48,614 bases of DNA, taken from positions 1 through 48,614 of the IMG/VR virus record IMGVR_UViG_3300010399_000012; one strand, 5' to 3'. Position numbers and translations under genes: made by a program. The stretch is from a virus. The notes under the pieces are model-generated. The model did no database searches, was not told the origin of the DNA, and worked only from the letters and a program-made list of their open reading frames with translations. Positions 9,462-47,350 of the stretch are shown piece after piece (position 1 is the first letter of the stretch; each line of letters starts with the position of its first letter).

Positions 9462-9644
9462 ATGACCCTCTACATCATCACAGTGACCGAAAAGTTCCAG
9501 GCAGCCGGCGAATGCGAAGGCACACTGGAAATCGAAGCCGCCAACAAAAAGGAAGCAATCAGCAAGGCCCGCAGGAAGGTTGCCCCGAACCGCAGCCGCT
9601 ACGATGGCCCGGTCTACTACTCGGCAAGGGAGTGGGGGGAGTGA
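9462..9644 (+). CDS. Hypothetical protein of cassette A, 60 aa
   Basis: The ATG follows GGAGCAAGCAA. It has the beta-beta-alpha pattern of small DpnD/PcfM-like phage proteins (LYIITVTEKFQAAG, LEIEAANKKEAISKARRKV). That resemblance is weak and no function follows. It is the first gene behind promoter copy A and its stop overlaps the GTG of the HTH gene. Confidence 0.55.
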   Translation: MTLYIITVTEKFQAAGECEGTLEIEAANKKEAISKARRKVAPNRSRYDGPVYYSAREWGE

Positions 9645-9832
9645 CCCCCACCCAATACAAGGCCGCCATAAAGGCGCTGGGGCTGTCCCAGGAGCGTGCG
9701 GGGGATTGGCTCGGCATCGGCCGCAGAACCTCCCAGGGCTACGCGCTGGGAGAATATCCCGTACCTGAGCCAGTGGCGAAGCTGCTGCGCTTGTGCGTCA
9801 AGCTAAAGCTGAAACCCGAGGACGTGGTTTGA
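9641..9832 (+). CDS. Small HTH protein, copy A, 63 aa
   Basis: The GTG start overlaps the previous stop. The HTH domain is TPTQYKAAIKALGLSQERAG (helices 1-2), DWLGIGRRTSQGYALGEYPV (recognition helix and turn) and LLRLCVKLKLKPEDV. It is a common rhizobial/Bradyrhizobium phage-type regulator. A second copy at 11049-11240 differs at only two amino acids although the DNA has many silent changes. Its operator may be the palindrome in the duplicated promoters. Confidence 0.8.
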   Translation: MTPTQYKAAIKALGLSQERAGDWLGIGRRTSQGYALGEYPVPEPVAKLLRLCVKLKLKPEDVV

Positions 9833-10735: not shown

Positions 10736-10932
10736 CCAAGGACGACATGCTCGACCTCATTGCCCAGCGCCGCGACTTTCACATTAAGTCAGCGGCGGAC
10801 TGGCTTGATCTTGTTCAGAAGCATGCTGCCAAAAATGAAATTAGGGATCTTTCGGACGCCTCCACAAGTGCGGAGCGACACAACTTTGCGGCCCACTCAT
10901 TTGGATTATTGCTCAAGGAGTTAGAGGGATGA
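10732..10932 (+). CDS. Hypothetical helical protein, 66 aa
   Basis: The ATG at 10732 overlaps the previous stop. All-helical and acidic (MLDLIAQRRDFHIKSAADWL, HSFGLLLKELEG). No family was recognised. The stop overlaps the ATG of the fused HTH gene. Confidence 0.5.
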   Translation: MTKDDMLDLIAQRRDFHIKSAADWLDLVQKHAAKNEIRDLSDASTSAERHNFAAHSFGLLLKELEG

Positions 10933-11240
10933 AGCCGCTTTCCGATCGCCTCAGAGAAGCCTGTGACGGCCACCCTCATGCCAAGATAGAGTGGCCGCAC
11001 AGAATCCTTCACGAGGCGGCGGACGCCCTAACCCAGTCGAGCAACACGATGACACCGACCCAATACAAGGCGGCTATCAAGGCCCTGGAGCTATCCCAAG
11101 AGCGAGCGGGTGATTGGCTCGGCATCGGCCGCCGAACCTCTCAGGGCTACGCGCTAGGCGAATACCCCGTGCCTGAGCCAGTGGCGAAGCTGTTGCGTCT
11201 GTGCGTCAAACTGAAGCTCAAGCCCGAAGACGTGAAATGA
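10929..11240 (+). CDS. HTH protein copy B fused to an N-terminal phage module, 103 aa
   Basis: Residues 1-40 (MKPLSDRLREACDGHPHAKI and a following EWPHRILHEAADAL) are a short module normally seen as an independent small phage protein or N-terminus. Residues 41-103 are the HTH domain, 61 of 63 identical to the protein at 9641. An internal ATG at 11049 could also give the free 63-aa HTH protein from the same gene. The fusion distinguishes it from copy A and may give it a different partner. Confidence 0.7.
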   Translation: MKPLSDRLREACDGHPHAKIEWPHRILHEAADALTQSSNTMTPTQYKAAIKALELSQERAGDWLGIGRRTSQGYALGEYPVPEPVAKLLRLCVKLKLKPEDVK

Positions 11241-28619: not shown

Positions 28620-31173
28620 TTGCGCTCTCCGTCCCACTCAGTCTCTTGATGTCCTGCCTGTTTTTCTCCGGCAGGTCGTGGAAATACCGGGCTATGGCTG
28701 CAACTTGATTTTCAAACAGGAACGGCGATGACATGGCCTCTGCGCGCTTCTGCTCAAAGCTGGATGATTTTTCCCTTGCTGCGGTCTGAACGGCACGCAT
28801 AGCATCCGGATCGGCATAGAAGTGCCGTGGGATCGTTTGAACGTGACCGTTCTTGTCTTCATAGCTCAGAACGTAGCTTGGGGCCTCGCCGCGGACATAG
28901 CGCTCACCTGTGTTTTTCACCTCGTCAATCCGGAGTTTCGACCGCTCTACATCCGTCCCGTTCAGATCTTTGATGGCAACCACAGCCTGAGCCGCGATGG
29001 CTTCAGCGACATTATCTACACCAGCATAGGCAGGCGATCGCTCAGGAGGATATTTCATCACGACCTTTGAGCCGTTGACCTCCGTTACTCCCCACGTCTT
29101 TTTCATGTCCTCGAGCGCAAGCTTCTTGCTCAAGGTCACATCGCCATTGCGAGCGAACTTCTCACGGAAACCTTCCTCATAATCACCCATCGCGCGTTGG
29201 CGCATATTGGGATCGAAGGCCAGCTTAGGGTCATTGAACGGTATCCATGAATTATCAAAGGCCCCCCTGATATCGCTATCCTTCAGCTCCTTCTTCACAA
29301 TGGTATTCATGTCCTCGGACTTGATCCGGGCCTTGACCGTCCGCTCGTATTCCGGAGTTCGTTCTTCCATGATGCGCGCAGTAGCTTCAGCCGCGGTCAT
29401 GCCCCGGTCATAGACGTAATGCCGGAACGTATTTGCCGCCTCGGTCAGCTTCTCGCCGCCCGTGGCGCCGGCAAAGATATCCGGATAGCGACCACCAACC
29501 AGATTGGCCGCCGTCTGTAGCGCGCCCTCAACCCGCTTGGCATCGGGCGAGAACATAGCCCCCTGCATGGCAACCGCAGCGCTGGCAGGCACGATCCCGG
29601 TTTTCTCAGCGATCGTTTGCAGCGCCTGCATGTTGCCGCCGAGCGACCTGAAACCAGCGTCCGCAGCGTCTTTATGGCCCTTATCCACAGGGTTCCATGG
29701 GAAGTCCGGGTTGGCCATTGCCTGCCCGAACGCCGTCACATCAGCCAGGCCCTTGTCGCGCGATGCGATCTGTCCCTGCAGCTTCATGATGTCGCCGGCA
29801 TCCTTTAGCCAGCCTTCCTGCCGAGCCTTCTGGACGTCCGCAATTCCGGCCGTACCGTCGATAATGCCGGTCTGCATGGTATTGAAACGGTCGTTATAGG
29901 TCGCTGTTGCCGCCGCAGCTTCCGCCGCAGACTGCTTATGCAGTTCGATTTCAGCCCGGCCGGCGAGCTGGGGCCGCTGATCCGCGGGAATGTTTGCAAA
30001 CCGCGGATCAGGAGCATGCAACCCCTGCACCGGCCCGTCACCCGAACTGCGAACCAATGCCGCCTCAGCCAGCCGGCGGCTTTCGTTGACGCCGTTATTG
30101 TGCCCCTTCAGTCCCTCTATCGAGCGCGCCAGCGCCTCCGTGTCTCCTGACTTGGCCGCAGACACCACCGAGGCCGGCAGGCTCCCATAGTTATAGGCCA
30201 CGGACCCCAGCGCGGCCTGCTGGTTGGGGTTCAGCTTGTTGAAGGCTTCTTCGCCCACCGAGGATTTCACGCCGCCTAGAAACTCGGTAGAGCGCCGGGC
30301 AAGGTCTCTTTCAGCATCCGCGCGCGTTACCGTATCGCCTTGCTTGACCTGGCGGACCGAGCCATCGGCCGCCGTGATCGTGTCCGACCCGTAGCCAACA
30401 CGATGGGCGTTCACATCCCAATAGGTCGAGGACTTGAACCCTTCCTTGTCGCGCAGAACCTGCATCGTGCGATCGAGCGCGGTTCCGGAGAGACCCTTGT
30501 CGATGCCCCAGCCCTTGGCGATCCGTGCGGCCTCTTCTGGATTGCTTTTCAGGACCGACAGGTACCCGGCCGTCTCCAGCGTAGGCTTGACCGATTTGCG
30601 CAGTTCTTCCTTCTGGACCGGCGTCAAGGTTGAGGAATTGATCATCTCCTCAACGTCTTTGGCGAAGGGTTCGATCTGGGCCGGGCCGCCCTGAAGCACG
30701 CCCTGCTTGGCCGTCTCGAACCGCTCGCCGATCTTGACGCCCTGATAGCGCTGGCTTTCGGCAGCCTCAATGGTCGCTGCACCGACCGAGAACGATTCCC
30801 GCTTTGCCCTGATGCGCGCCTCGAACTCGCCGCGCTGGCTCTCCGGGATCTTCGTCAGCCATTCCTTTGACCGATCGTCATAGGTCTTGAGAAGGTTATC
30901 ATGCAATCCGGCGGCGCCTGGCTGCATGGTCTCCTTGGCCTTTTGGGTTTCCCCGGTCAGGCCAGCGCTGAACTCGTCAAACTGAATAAGCGACTGGAAG
31001 CGCTCCTGCTGCGCAACGCGATCGAAATAATGCGTCGTCAGTGACTGACCCTTGGTGCCGGCCTGCTCCAACGCGGCACCGACGGGAGAACCGGAAACGC
31101 CCGCGTAGGATACAACGCCACCAGGATCAAGGCCGCGGGTGGCGCCCGCTATGCGCGGAATAGTCGCCATCAA
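28606..31173 (-). CDS. Internal virion protein with lysozyme-like domain, 855 aa
   Basis: Residues about 230-370 are a phage lysozyme fold: VLRDKEGFKSSTYWDVNAHR with candidate catalytic Glu near 244, then VGYGSDTITA, and PNQQAALGSVAYNYGSLP. The Thr expected in T4-type enzymes is not at its usual place. The rest is helical. It would thin the peptidoglycan during DNA entry, as T7 gp16 does with its own lytic domain. Start ATG at 31173, overlapping the stop of the 166-aa gene. Confidence 0.75.
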   Translation of the reverse strand: MMATIPRIAGATRGLDPGGVVSYAGVSGSPVGAALEQAGTKGQSLTTHYFDRVAQQERFQSLIQFDEFSAGLTGETQKAKETMQPGAAGLHDNLLKTYDDRSKEWLTKIPESQRGEFEARIRAKRESFSVGAATIEAAESQRYQGVKIGERFETAKQGVLQGGPAQIEPFAKDVEEMINSSTLTPVQKEELRKSVKPTLETAGYLSVLKSNPEEAARIAKGWGIDKGLSGTALDRTMQVLRDKEGFKSSTYWDVNAHRVGYGSDTITAADGSVRQVKQGDTVTRADAERDLARRSTEFLGGVKSSVGEEAFNKLNPNQQAALGSVAYNYGSLPASVVSAAKSGDTEALARSIEGLKGHNNGVNESRRLAEAALVRSSGDGPVQGLHAPDPRFANIPADQRPQLAGRAEIELHKQSAAEAAAATATYNDRFNTMQTGIIDGTAGIADVQKARQEGWLKDAGDIMKLQGQIASRDKGLADVTAFGQAMANPDFPWNPVDKGHKDAADAGFRSLGGNMQALQTIAEKTGIVPASAAVAMQGAMFSPDAKRVEGALQTAANLVGGRYPDIFAGATGGEKLTEAANTFRHYVYDRGMTAAEATARIMEERTPEYERTVKARIKSEDMNTIVKKELKDSDIRGAFDNSWIPFNDPKLAFDPNMRQRAMGDYEEGFREKFARNGDVTLSKKLALEDMKKTWGVTEVNGSKVVMKYPPERSPAYAGVDNVAEAIAAQAVVAIKDLNGTDVERSKLRIDEVKNTGERYVRGEAPSYVLSYEDKNGHVQTIPRHFYADPDAMRAVQTAAREKSSSFEQKRAEAMSSPFLFENQVAAIARYFHDLPEKNRQDIKRLSGTESANAVP

Positions 31174-40401: not shown

Positions 40402-41169
40402 CTAGAACCCCGTGAGCGGATCTCCGCCCATTGCATTCGCTGCCATCGCCTTCTTGCGGTTCTCGGAGCGAAGCGCTGGCGGTAACAGCGCATGGCGGAT
40501 CATCATCACACCGTAACGGGTTGCCGACATCAGGTCGTCCTTCAGCTTCACGACCTTGCCGTCCTTGCGATGATAAAGGCGGAACTCCTCGAACCAGTCA
40601 TTGAGGTTCGAAAACACCTTAAGGCGGCCTGTCTGCATGCGCTCCAGCATTTCAGTCAAGCCAGGAAATACCGCATTCGAACCATCAGGGAATGTCGCCA
40701 TGCTCTCCAGCATGTTTAGCCCGTGGTCCTCATACTGCTTCCTAAGCGGGACGCCGCCACCGGCGGCGGTCTCGTTGTTTCCATCATGCGGCCAGGCCCA
40801 AGGAATCCACTTGCCCCACGGCTTGACCGCCGCCGCGTGAATGATCGGCGTTTCCTGACTGGCCCTATAGCATTTCACAACGTAGATGACGTCAGCTTCA
40901 TCGTCATAAACCAGCTCGACTGCTCCGAACGGATGATCCCAGCCAAAATCCATCGCACCAAGGCGTGGCCAATAGACCGGCATCTGGAACGGCTCAATAG
41001 TGAGCAGTGCTTCCTCTATCGGGAAAATGCGTCCCGAACCCAGAACTGGTATTCCCTTGGCCCTAGCCTCTCGTTCATGCGCCGGATAGGCCGCAACGAT
41101 GTCAGCACGCTCTTGCGCCGTGTAGTGCTCGGCGTCGTCAATCGTCATGAACGTAACGTGTTTGCTCAC
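40402..41169 (-). CDS. terL: Large terminase, nuclease part (separate reading frame), 255 aa
   Basis: An RNase-H-like nuclease with three acidic residues: Asp74 (GAMDFGWD), Asp129 (WAWPHDG) and Asp212 (LKDDLMSATRYG). It begins with a GTG that overlaps the stop of the ATPase gene by 4 bases. The first residues, HVTFMTIDDAEHYTAQERAD, are the segment that follows the ATPase domain in intact terminases. It cuts the phage DNA concatemer at packaging. The fusion has been lost, or the two parts work as a complex. Confidence 0.85.
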   Translation of the reverse strand: MSKHVTFMTIDDAEHYTAQERADIVAAYPAHEREARAKGIPVLGSGRIFPIEEALLTIEPFQMPVYWPRLGAMDFGWDHPFGAVELVYDDEADVIYVVKCYRASQETPIIHAAAVKPWGKWIPWAWPHDGNNETAAGGGVPLRKQYEDHGLNMLESMATFPDGSNAVFPGLTEMLERMQTGRLKVFSNLNDWFEEFRLYHRKDGKVVKLKDDLMSATRYGVMMIRHALLPPALRSENRKKAMAANAMGGDPLTGF

Positions 41170-41921
41170 TTCTTGACCATTTTCTTGAGCTGCTCATCGC
41201 TCAGAAACTGGAGAACAACGTCCGACATGCCCTGCAATGGAGTGAATGTGACGATGATGATGCCGCCCGTGGTGTTGGTTCGCGTTAAACCCTCGCTATA
41301 GATATCAAGCGGCGGCTCTTCATCTTCCCAAATGCCCTCTAGCGTTTCGCCTTGCCACTTCTCGCGGCCCATCTCATAGCTTTTGAAGCTATTGACGCTC
41401 TCTCCAGCCTGGACATCGCCACCGCCGCCCCACTTGACGACGATGCTATCCAGCGCGTTAGGAACGCCACGCCCCATGATCGTATCAACAATGGCATCCC
41501 CAGGGATCATACCAGTCCCCCAAGCCTCTTGCTGTTGAGGCGGACCGACAAGTATGCGCTGCGGATTATCGCGCGTACTAAGCCCTGTGACGCCTGCAGC
41601 CCACATCCTCACTGGCTTGTTAAAGACCTTGCCTTGCCACCAGTCCGGGTAACGTCCGGTTAGGTGGATCGCCCACTCTGCGCCACCAGCCAGCGTCTTG
41701 CCAAGCTGGTTGCCGGCCATGAACAACCGCTCTCGGTTGTCCTTGCCGGCCGCATGAAACTGCGCCTGCTTACTGTAGGGTCGATACGCCGCCAGCCGGT
41801 TGCGGTCCGCTCTTCGCTTCTTCTGTTGCAGAAGCTCCAGCAGTTCCAATTTCAACGCCGATGATGCCGGCGAGCTGTCGGATACGCTGGTCAAGCTCGG
41901 AATCGGAGAGTTCATCGACAC
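41166..41921 (-). CDS. terL: Large terminase, ATPase part (separate reading frame), 251 aa
   Basis: Walker A GNQLGKT (residues 70-76), Walker B LEGIWEDEEPP (about 194-204) and a TFTP coupling motif near 227 identify the packaging motor. The frame ends shortly after ...VVLQFLSDEQ, exactly at the link to the nuclease domain. The N-terminal 45 residues overlap the small-terminase gene by 152 bases in another frame, so the true start may be further in. It powers DNA translocation into the prohead. Confidence 0.85.
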   Translation of the reverse strand: MSMNSPIPSLTSVSDSSPASSALKLELLELLQQKKRRADRNRLAAYRPYSKQAQFHAAGKDNRERLFMAGNQLGKTLAGGAEWAIHLTGRYPDWWQGKVFNKPVRMWAAGVTGLSTRDNPQRILVGPPQQQEAWGTGMIPGDAIVDTIMGRGVPNALDSIVVKWGGGGDVQAGESVNSFKSYEMGREKWQGETLEGIWEDEEPPLDIYSEGLTRTNTTGGIIIVTFTPLQGMSDVVLQFLSDEQLKKMVKK

Positions 41922-43979: not shown

Positions 43980-44693
43980 TCACTTGCGACGATGCCCAAT
44001 CTGGGGTGATTTGCTGGACCAGTCAAGGCCCTTGTTCCGCTTTGCATTGGCGTCGTCCTCCATTATCCGGACAACATCGTCCTGCGTCAGGTAGACCAGC
44101 CCGATACCGGGGACGAACATCGAAGGTTTCCAGTTGGTCTGAACAACCTCCCTGCCCTCGCCGCCAAAGCCATAGATCAGCGCAAGATCATCCAGACATT
44201 CCCGCAGCCGACGCCCGAGGTATTTCCGTTCGAGTTCGGTTTTCATTGAGCGCTTGGCGGCAACTTGATCCAGGCTCATCCGCGCAATGAGAACGTCATG
44301 GGCGATTGATGACCCGGACTGGCCGAGGACACCATGCACCCGGTTTAAACGCGCCACGGCCTTCTGCTGCTGTTCCGTAATGGGCTCTGGCATCCGCCCG
44401 CCGTCCACAGCCTCCTTGCTCGGATCGATCGCGCGCGGGCCCCGTTCAGCCGTCTCGAAATCGTGCTGGAAGGCCCGGCCACCATGGTACTGTGCCTCGT
44501 CGATTTGGTTGCGGGCGTGCAGGTTGGCCAGCGGATCGTTCCTCGTGTTCCGTTCGGTGATAATCTTGGCGCCGACCTCGTATGGGTCATCCACCTCGAT
44601 CAGGTGCCGTGGATACTCCGGATTCGGCTTGCCCTTCTTGCTCGCCGCAATCCCTACCCGGCGGATGTTCTTGGTCATTGAGGCCCCGTGCAT
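43980..44693 (-). CDS. Conserved phage protein at a late-regulator position, 237 aa
   Basis: AAGGAACC precedes the ATG at 44693. The pattern EVDDPYEVGAKIITERNTRN, IDEAQYHGGRAFQHDFETAE and ELERKYLGRRLRECLDDLAL is shared with DUF6456-like proteins of rhizobial phages. It lies between the replication genes and the packaging genes, the location of lambda-type late regulators such as Q. That makes it a regulatory candidate, with no direct evidence. A helical C-terminal half suits DNA or RNA polymerase contact. Confidence 0.55.
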   Translation of the reverse strand: MHGASMTKNIRRVGIAASKKGKPNPEYPRHLIEVDDPYEVGAKIITERNTRNDPLANLHARNQIDEAQYHGGRAFQHDFETAERGPRAIDPSKEAVDGGRMPEPITEQQQKAVARLNRVHGVLGQSGSSIAHDVLIARMSLDQVAAKRSMKTELERKYLGRRLRECLDDLALIYGFGGEGREVVQTNWKPSMFVPGIGLVYLTQDDVVRIMEDDANAKRNKGLDWSSKSPQIGHRRK

Positions 44694-44694
44694 T

Positions 44695-44940
44695 TTAGGT
44701 TCCTTCGGTCTTGCGGTGGAAGTAATCCTTCAACCACTCCCGCGATTTCCCCAGCCTTGCCAGGTTCTCAGGCTTGCTGCTGCCGCTCTGAAGGCCAGAA
44801 GTGGTGGTGTCGATGACCGGGGTATTCCCGGTCATGCCCGGTTCTGGAGCGGGCATCTGCGCCCCGTGCGCCGCGCTATGGTTTTCTGCGCGCCGGTCGC
44901 TCGGCTCCCTTACCGAGCCGTCTGAGGGGTCGCGGATCAT
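44695..44940 (-). CDS. Hypothetical protein, 81 aa
   Basis: A polar, largely disordered N-terminal half (Ser/Glu/Pro/Thr), then a short basic helix (NLARLGKSREWLKDYFHRK). ATGA overlap with the initiator gene. No family was recognised. Confidence 0.5.
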   Translation of the reverse strand: MIRDPSDGSVREPSDRRAENHSAAHGAQMPAPEPGMTGNTPVIDTTTSGLQSGSSKPENLARLGKSREWLKDYFHRKTEGT

Positions 44941-45578
44941 GCCATCCTCCGAAGTTCGAGGCCGAATTCGCGCAATAATTCCGGCGGGGCTCGGCAGGCT
45001 GGCGATGTTGGATCGTTGCCGTGGCCCTTCGGCCAGTTCCCAAAGCTAGTGTAGCTTTGCAAAGCGGCTCGCCAATTGACGTTTTCCGGATTGACCACGC
45101 CGACGCCTGGCGCCTGCTTTGGTGCCCAATCAGCAGAATTCAGCAGCCATTTGTCCCAAGCGAAGTTCCAGTTTTTGAAAACCGTCCCCTTCGCTCGGTG
45201 GTGCGATGTGAACTTGCTCAGCTCCCGTTCCGCTCCGTCAGTCCCCAGCTTTCGGCAAGCGGCTGTCCAGCGAACCTCGTCCGGTCTCCAACCTTCCGCC
45301 AACTGCGTGCCTCTATCTTTCTTACTTTCCTTCTTCTCTTTTTCTAAACCTATAGAGGGTGCCTCAGGAATTCCGGTGGACTCCGGTGGAATTCCGGTGG
45401 AATTCCGCTTCCTTTCACGATCATAAGCGCGCCTTTTCTCGGCTACCTTATCCACCGGATTCCGCGGAATTCCGGTGGAATTAACGCCGGCAACAAACGC
45501 GCGAGCTACAACGGAAGCAGCCACATCAGGCGCACATCCAGCCTCGATCAGTTCTGCAACCATCTCGCCAACATCCAT
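44937..45578 (-). CDS. Replication initiator-like protein (DnaT/lambda-O-like), 213 aa
   Basis: Residues about 1-60 form a helical domain. Residues 50-85 contain repeats of STGIP in a charged linker (KRNSTGIPPESTGIPEA). Residues about 95-165 (LAEGWRPDEVRWTAACRKLG, ERELSKFTSHHRAKGTVFKN, WNFAWDKWLL) match the C-terminal helicase-loading domain of phage replication proteins. The repeats are coded by the iteron-like DNA described at 45310-45479, as in lambda O. It would bind the origin and recruit the host helicase. Confidence 0.65.
   Translation of the reverse strand: MDVGEMVAELIEAGCAPDVAASVVARAFVAGVNSTGIPRNPVDKVAEKRRAYDRERKRNSTGIPPESTGIPEAPSIGLEKEKKESKKDRGTQLAEGWRPDEVRWTAACRKLGTDGAERELSKFTSHHRAKGTVFKNWNFAWDKWLLNSADWAPKQAPGVGVVNPENVNWRAALQSYTSFGNWPKGHGNDPTSPACRAPPELLREFGLELRRMA
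45310..45479. other. Candidate replication origin: iterons, DnaA box and AT-rich tract
   Basis: Inside the initiator gene the 10-mer TTCCGGTGGA (one copy starting CT) occurs at 45371-45380, 45381-45390, 45392-45401 and 45470-45479, plus an inverted copy at 45451-45460. The first three are spaced by about one helical turn. TTATCCACC (45448-45456), one base from the DnaA-box consensus TTATNCACA, overlaps the inverted copy. Next to the direct array is a 45-base stretch (45311-45355) with 69% A+T, nearly all pyrimidine on the plus strand. This is the layout of the lambda origin. Confidence 0.55.
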
Positions 45579-45581
45579 CGC

Positions 45582-45827
45582 TTAGACCATCCCCATCGCA
45601 ACCATGTAAGCCTGCACTTCCGCTTCAAGGGCCTCAGCCTTCTTGGCGTCCTGTCGCTTCTTGCGCACGATTACGCGAATGGCGGACGGATTAAGCCCGC
45701 CGCCCTTTGCTTCCAGGTAAATCTCGGCGATGTCTTTGCTGAGATCCTTCTTCTGGTCCTCCAAGTTAACGACGCGATCGACAATCGCCTTAAGCTGTCC
45801 GTTATGCCCCGGCTGTGCTTCGCTCAT
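45582..45827 (-). CDS. GapR-family (DUF2312) DNA-binding protein, 81 aa
   Basis: Almost the whole protein fits GapR: QLKAIVDRVVNLEDQKKDLS, IAEIYLEAKGGGLNPSAIRV and VRKKRQDAKKAEALEAEVQA. GapR of Caulobacter binds overtwisted DNA ahead of forks and stimulates topoisomerases. The start at 45827 is the first good ATG. It lies directly upstream of the initiator and origin, so it probably supports phage replication or takes over host chromosome topology. Confidence 0.9.
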   Translation of the reverse strand: MSEAQPGHNGQLKAIVDRVVNLEDQKKDLSKDIAEIYLEAKGGGLNPSAIRVIVRKKRQDAKKAEALEAEVQAYMVAMGMV

Positions 45828-46686: not shown

Positions 46687-46850
46687 TGTACGTCCTCCAG
46701 TTTCCGCTTTAGAATTGCCTCGTCCAGTCTCCGCAGCCATTCGCTGGAGACGACGGTGTATCCAAGATCAAGCAATTCAGTGCGGAGCTTCTCCACGCGA
46801 ATTGCCTTCTCCAAAGGGGTTCTATCGATGACGATTTCCTGGAGGTTCAT
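46683..46850 (-). CDS. Hypothetical helical protein, 55 aa
   Basis: ATG at 46850 preceded by GGC-rich sequence of the DnaA-like gene's 3' end, which it overlaps by 4 bases. Leu/Arg/Glu-rich helices ([36 protein letters not shown]) suggest a coiled coil. Function unknown. Confidence 0.5.
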
Positions 46851-47350
46851 ATGCCTACGTCCGGGATGACTTGCTTGATGCGCTCAAGCTCGGCAGCAAA
46901 CACGGCGTCTTTTGCGACCATCGCCTCAATCTTGCGCACGGCGTGCAAGACCGTCGTGTGATCTCGACCACCAAAGCGACGGCCTATCTCTGGAAGTGAG
47001 CGCGCCGTGATGGTCTTCGACAGGTACATCGCAATCTGTCTGGCCCTGACCATTTTTGCATTGCGCCGGGGCGACTTCAGGTCATACATCGTGACGCTGG
47101 GATACTCGGCGAGAACAGCCAGTTGAATGGCCTCGATACGGTTCATCACCATCCGCGGTGAGACGATCTCGCAGGCTTCGGCAATGGCCGCGTTCGGAAT
47201 CGGCGGCATGGCTTTCAGCGTTTCGCTTCCTGGCAGGCGCTCACCTACCGGAATAGCGGCTGCGCTGGAGAATCTATGCAGCCTTGCCTGTCTTGCCGCT
47301 GCGGCGAGAAGCTGTGATTGCGTCGCGGTTTCATGCGGATTGTGAAGCAT
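46847..47350 (-). CDS. DnaA domain-IV-like DNA-binding protein, 167 aa
   Basis: Residues about 65-160 match the DnaA C-terminal domain: [40 protein letters not shown], then the DnaA-box signature [16 protein letters not shown] (127-142). The AAA+ ATPase part of DnaA is absent, so it cannot load helicase itself. It should bind DnaA boxes such as the one in the candidate origin, either to help the phage origin or to compete with host DnaA. Confidence 0.85.

Follow-up and report, generated by a model that had tools for sequence, protein, structure and literature searches.

We propose that region 45314-45479 of this phage is its replication origin, lying inside the gene of its own initiator; on the evidence of the sequence this is very probably the correct explanation, and the best one that we could find. 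That the initiator gene contains a lambda-like origin had been suggested in a first-pass annotation of the window (the whole stretch of DNA analysed here, 48,614 nucleotides), and sequence comparison strongly supports that suggestion through the DNA-level conservation of the iterons, the AT-rich tract and modular exchange. The case is built on direct observations, namely the repeats, their conservation as DNA, the AT-rich tract, the exchange of modules and the covariation of a basic helix with the repeats. Two marks of a lambda-type origin are apparent: repeated candidate initiator sites (iterons) within the initiator gene, and an AT-rich tract next to them (45314-45355) whose position is conserved. 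The features of the locus are the following.

44937-45578, minus strand: initiator gene, 213 aa (PF17948 and PHROG matches; relatives L001-L005; AlphaFold2 model)
45138-45305, minus strand: codons of the DnaT-like domain, residues 92-147 (PF17948/DnaT profile matches; model pLDDT about 90)
45314-45355, unstranded: AT-rich tract, proposed DNA unwinding element, coding for a lysine-rich linker
45372-45380, minus strand: iteron 5, coding for STG
45382-45390, minus strand: iteron 4, in another reading frame, coding for PPE
45393-45401, minus strand: iteron 3, coding for STG
45405-45440, minus strand: basic helix EKRRAYDRERKR, codons 47-58, proposed iteron-specificity element ([YW]D or [YW]R according to class)
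45448-45456, plus strand: TTATCCACC, DnaA-box-like and probably incidental, overlapping the inverted iteron
45451-45459, plus strand: iteron 2, the inverted copy, coding for PVD
45471-45479, minus strand: iteron 1, TCCACCGGA on the coding strand, coding for STG
45477-45572, minus strand: codons of the N-terminal helical hairpin, residues 3-34 (AlphaFold2 helices 3-12 and 17-34; pLDDT about 81-87)
45582-45827, minus strand: GapR-like DNA-binding protein (PF10073, E 1.1e-16; ORF open to 45896)
46847-47350, minus strand: stand-alone DnaA domain IV protein (PF08299, E 1.6e-26)

The repeats share a core of 9 bp, TCCACCGGA on the coding strand or TCCGGTGGA on the + strand, where it is found at 45372, 45382, 45393 and 45471, with the inverted copy at 45451. 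All five copies, four in one orientation and one inverted, fall within 108 bp (45372-45479) of the initiator gene; no further copy of TCCACCGGA is present elsewhere in the 48.6-kb genome, for which 0.46-0.54 would be expected genome-wide. When the codons were resampled for the same protein with the codon usage of the genome, 200,000 trials gave a maximum of 3 copies, against the 5 observed. Iterons 1 and 2 form a head-to-head pair 20 bp apart, which is a near-perfect palindrome (45451-45479), and iterons 3 to 5, 58 bp away from this pair, form an array at 10- and 11-bp steps, that is, one helical turn. The initial description of five copies of a 10-mer at helical spacing was thus right in the number and orientation of the copies and, as to spacing, in the three-copy array, whereas the exact core is only 9 bp and the other two copies are the head-to-head pair. 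No Rfam family matched at the locus.

We then compared the locus with its relatives. A protein similarity search gave five viral relatives (L001-L005). The five iterons are all retained in L001-L003, and L004 and L005 keep the C-terminal domain with different repeats at the same place. Another gene, L051, found via its neighbouring GapR-like gene, pairs the iterons of the window with a C-terminal domain of another kind. L001, L002, L003 and L051 were all identified independently of the iterons; compared with the window, each of them has all 13 iteron codons unchanged, whereas 8-17 of 41 codons outside the iterons in the same stretch differ. Synonymous changes among relatives are absent from the iteron codons and reach 17-29% outside. 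With six genes pooled, synonymous differences at same-residue comparisons amounted to 0/185 in the iterons, 142/413 outside and 228/578 in the C-terminal domain, in pairs that are not independent and with L060, itself found by an iteron scan, included. Scanning viral contigs with the 17-bp iteron string AATTCCACCGGAATTCC gave 23 loci, which are mostly initiator-type genes save a few with one or two copies; scans of genome contigs gave no relatives. In the 19 genes with this iteron (class A below), the 9-mer occurs in both orientations and in five of the six registers (49, 36 and 3 copies in forward phases 0, 2 and 1; 19 and 3 in inverted phases 2 and 0), each scan-derived locus having one copy by construction and the remaining copies being unforced. 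Across these registers it spells STG, PPE/PPD, HR, PVD and SGG. Because the iterons carry no synonymous changes and the 9-mer is read in five registers, the constraint acts on the DNA and not on the peptide; comparison of about 40 related genes shows that evolution preserves the repeat DNA rather than the encoded amino acids, the DNA being kept while the peptide changes frame and orientation. The contrary pattern raised in the first-pass annotation, an STGIP peptide kept over unconserved DNA, is the opposite of what the relatives display, where the DNA is invariant.

The AT-rich, strand-asymmetric tract reported beside the repeats was confirmed. In a genome of roughly 58% GC, 45314-45355 holds the AT-richest 40 bp of all (72.5% AT), it adjoins the iteron array, and purines predominate in its coding strand. 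Moreover, in 33 of 43 genes a 40-mer within the top 1% of its locus for AT content begins 60-200 nt past the basic motif, where random segments give 7.1 expected and a maximum of 18 in 2000 sets; the class B genes L108, L119 and L126 are without an unusually AT-rich tract. A scan for the AT-tract sequence CCYTCTATATCTTTARATA gave only chance matches beyond the contigs of L001, L004 and L005. GC skew was confounded by gene direction and was not decisive for the position of the origin. The repeats might also be initiator-binding sites devoted mainly to autoregulation or copy control, with replication starting elsewhere. Plasmid iterons often serve control as well as initiation, a dual role that favours such a reading, and conservation of the DNA cannot tell the purposes of binding apart. 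However, the adjoining AT-richest tract, with its constant position in these 33 genes, fits an unwinding element, and the iterons are located 100-200 bp inside the gene and not at its promoter; we therefore regard a mainly regulatory function as unlikely.

A different mode of recognition would be a DnaA-dependent origin, in which recognition depends mainly on the pairing of the phage-encoded DnaA domain IV protein with the TTATCCACC box. The near-consensus box reported over the inverted copy does exist, one mismatch from the consensus, and the gene for the DnaA domain IV protein is located at a distance of 1.3 kb, its relatives being found near many such initiators. The box is nevertheless not conserved: among 14 aligned inverted iteron copies it is present in the window and L002 only, the others carrying different flanks. 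It is among 9 sites of the genome with at most one mismatch from TTATNCACA, the single perfect box being at 29681, and only 1 perfect TTATNCACA was found within 500 nt of the initiators in 43 loci. The box was thus rejected as a functional origin element, and a DnaA-dependent origin is very unlikely. As relatives of the DnaA domain IV protein are found near initiators of every iteron class, this protein is also unlikely to set iteron specificity.

Three iteron classes were distinguished: A (TCCACCGGA), B (CGTCACnAA) and C (CGTAACGAA), the class B and C genes having been found by scanning for the other repeats, which lie at the same position in the gene. Class B iterons follow 10-bp steps and rotate through all three frames as RHKASQSVT, and class C iterons alternate between 10- and 11-bp steps; all three classes share the short N-terminal helical hairpin and the basic motif. 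When the N-terminal/iteron classes A, B and C are set against C-terminal types 1 and 2, all six combinations are found. N-terminal parts of the same class are 51-91% identical whatever the C-terminal type, and C-terminal parts of the same type are 54-90% identical whatever the iteron class. Judging from these identities, the N-terminal part and its iteron class recombine with the C-terminal domain, a cassette exchange of the kind known for lambdoid O genes. This exchange bears on the idea that the repeats mark another phage site, for example a packaging (pac) or partition site, which as a matter of general knowledge can consist of repeats and lie in coding sequence; no result points to such a site here, where the gene encodes a replication initiator rather than a terminase and a change of repeats goes with a change of the initiator's N-terminal part, which makes it most improbable. 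Finally, the view that the repeats matter at the protein level, as a repetitive STGIP linker whose amino acids are conserved, was rejected and has hardly any chance of being right, since three STGIP units in the window and related peptides recurring in class A proteins are outweighed by an invariant DNA that is read in five of six registers, as STG, PPE, PVD, SGG and HR, by iteron codons without synonymous changes, and by relatives that wholly replace the peptide while their C-terminal domain is still 72-88% identical.

The iteron class covaries with the basic helix: all 19 class A genes carry [KR]RRA[YW]D, and all 25 genes of classes B and C carry R[QTM]xx[YW]R. The motif search was not based on the iterons, and its pattern admitted only D or R, so that the pairing with class was unforced. 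This covariation is a lead for recognition and not a proof, since shared cassette descent can also produce it, and the motif splits class B from class C only partially, some B and mixed genes sharing RQxRYRER. It does suggest a testable recognition code, in which class A is told apart from B/C by the single residue that follows the aromatic of the basic helix. We tentatively propose, as a possibility somewhat short of an even chance, that a widespread group of initiators without a winged helix reads its origin by a short basic helix whose codons lie about 150 bp or less from its binding sites, and that the helix, iterons and AT-rich tract are swapped between phages independently of the C-terminal replisome-loading domain. 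As this helix would be encoded beside its own sites, the three elements would form one self-contained cassette. The intragenic origin plan is already known; the proposed new part is the recognition helix beside its own target. In L121, L125, L131 and similar loci, a large gene (KVSVFKNLFNSKETPYNLS...) has CGTCAC repeats at its start or immediately ahead of it; these may be an intergenic origin belonging to a different group of phages.

From N to C, the initiator consists of a helical hairpin, the basic helix, the iteron-encoded linker and a DnaT-like domain. It matches three PHROG 'replication initiation protein' families (best phrog_1408, E 7.7e-8), and PF17948 (DnaT) at E 1.8e-4 with 21.6 bits, which is below the Pfam cut-off of 25 bits; profile matches of residues 93-156 to solved DnaT chains are weak (E 0.02-0.67). 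In the AlphaFold2 model the DnaT-like domain is helical and confident (about residues 88-150), the iteron-encoded linker is disordered, and a helix at residues 41-58 has low confidence (pLDDT 50-60). The hairpin is conserved across iteron classes. The protein had been described as DnaT/O-like, which holds for its DnaT-like C-terminal part but not for lambda O, as Pfam detected no PF04492 (lambda O N-terminal domain) and the model contains no winged helix. The N-terminal part gave no match in tblastn against phage and plasmid collections, and Foldseek gave no meaningful match in the PDB and weak matches to phage replication/HTH proteins in BFVD.

According to the origin reading, the N-terminal hairpin and adjoining basic helix of the initiator would bind the TCCACCGGA iterons, as one head-to-head pair and a one-turn-spaced array of three. 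Binding would strain and melt the AT-rich tract next to these iterons. The DnaT-like domain at the C-terminus may then engage the exposed single strand and help to load the host replisome, presumably through helicase recruitment, and replication would start at 45314-45479. Such an origin would work like lambda ori, but its initiator is not a member of the lambda O family.

In lambdoid phages the N-terminal part of O and the iterons are exchanged together, and here as in lambda the two change together. The lambda ori is made of iterons and an AT-rich tract within gene O and, like the origin proposed here, these lie between the N- and C-terminal parts of the initiator (PMC7466680). By contrast, lambda iterons are longer (4 in lambda, 6 in Stx phages), while those described here have 9 bp, 10-11 bp steps and both orientations; the present initiator has a DnaT-like C-terminal domain, in addition to lacking the O-type features named above, and no lambda-P-like gene was found next to it, Pfam and PHROG searches giving no P-type helicase loader in the neighbouring 44695-44940 or 43980-44693. 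Escherichia coli DnaT (primosomal protein 1, PF17948) resembles residues 92-147, with the sub-threshold match given above. It is a restart primosome protein with no origin in its own gene, whereas here a candidate origin lies inside the gene. For mycobacteriophages Miko and Rachaly, which have RepA-like initiators, analogy with lambda led to the suggestion that the origin lies upstream of repA or within it, and no repeated motif was identified in the regions that the authors examined; those initiators have an N-terminal helix-turn-helix, unlike the one described here (PMC7157519). In isolated phages, gp38 of Gordonia/Rhodococcus phage Jace and gp11 of Burkholderia phage Bcep176 are DnaT-type initiators with intragenic repeat arrays, eight copies at 11-bp steps in all three frames in gp38 (L152:1287-1375) and repeats at 17- and 22-bp steps in gp11. 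Both are larger (327 and 269 aa), with a longer, different N-terminal part and other repeat sequences. Jace, an isolated phage, would be a convenient laboratory model for intragenic repeats. A literature search of incomplete coverage found no description of the present initiator group. A hunch from one sequence has become a comparative case of three iteron classes and about 40 initiator genes, and it offers a rule for origins of uncultured phages, namely repeats of non-triplet period beside an AT-rich lysine tract in DnaT-type genes.

The 48.6-kb contig has 123 identical bp at both ends and is therefore probably complete and circular. The phage is temperate and encodes an integrase together with head-tail adaptor and tail tubular-type proteins, so that the T7-like virion context noted at first was broadly right. 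Among the proteins scanned, which cover part of the ORFs, none was recognised as a helicase, primase or DNA polymerase. The GapR-like gene is directly upstream of the initiator gene, and its relatives adjoin initiators in other phages. The large terminase is apparently split between overlapping ORFs (40402-41169 and 41166-41921), each matching a different terminase family. ORFs 9512-9832 and 10929-11240 share a near-identical C-terminal stretch (MTPTQYKAAIKAL..SQERAGDWLGIGRRTSQGYALGEYPVPEPVAKLLRLCVKLKLKPEDV), an apparent duplication.
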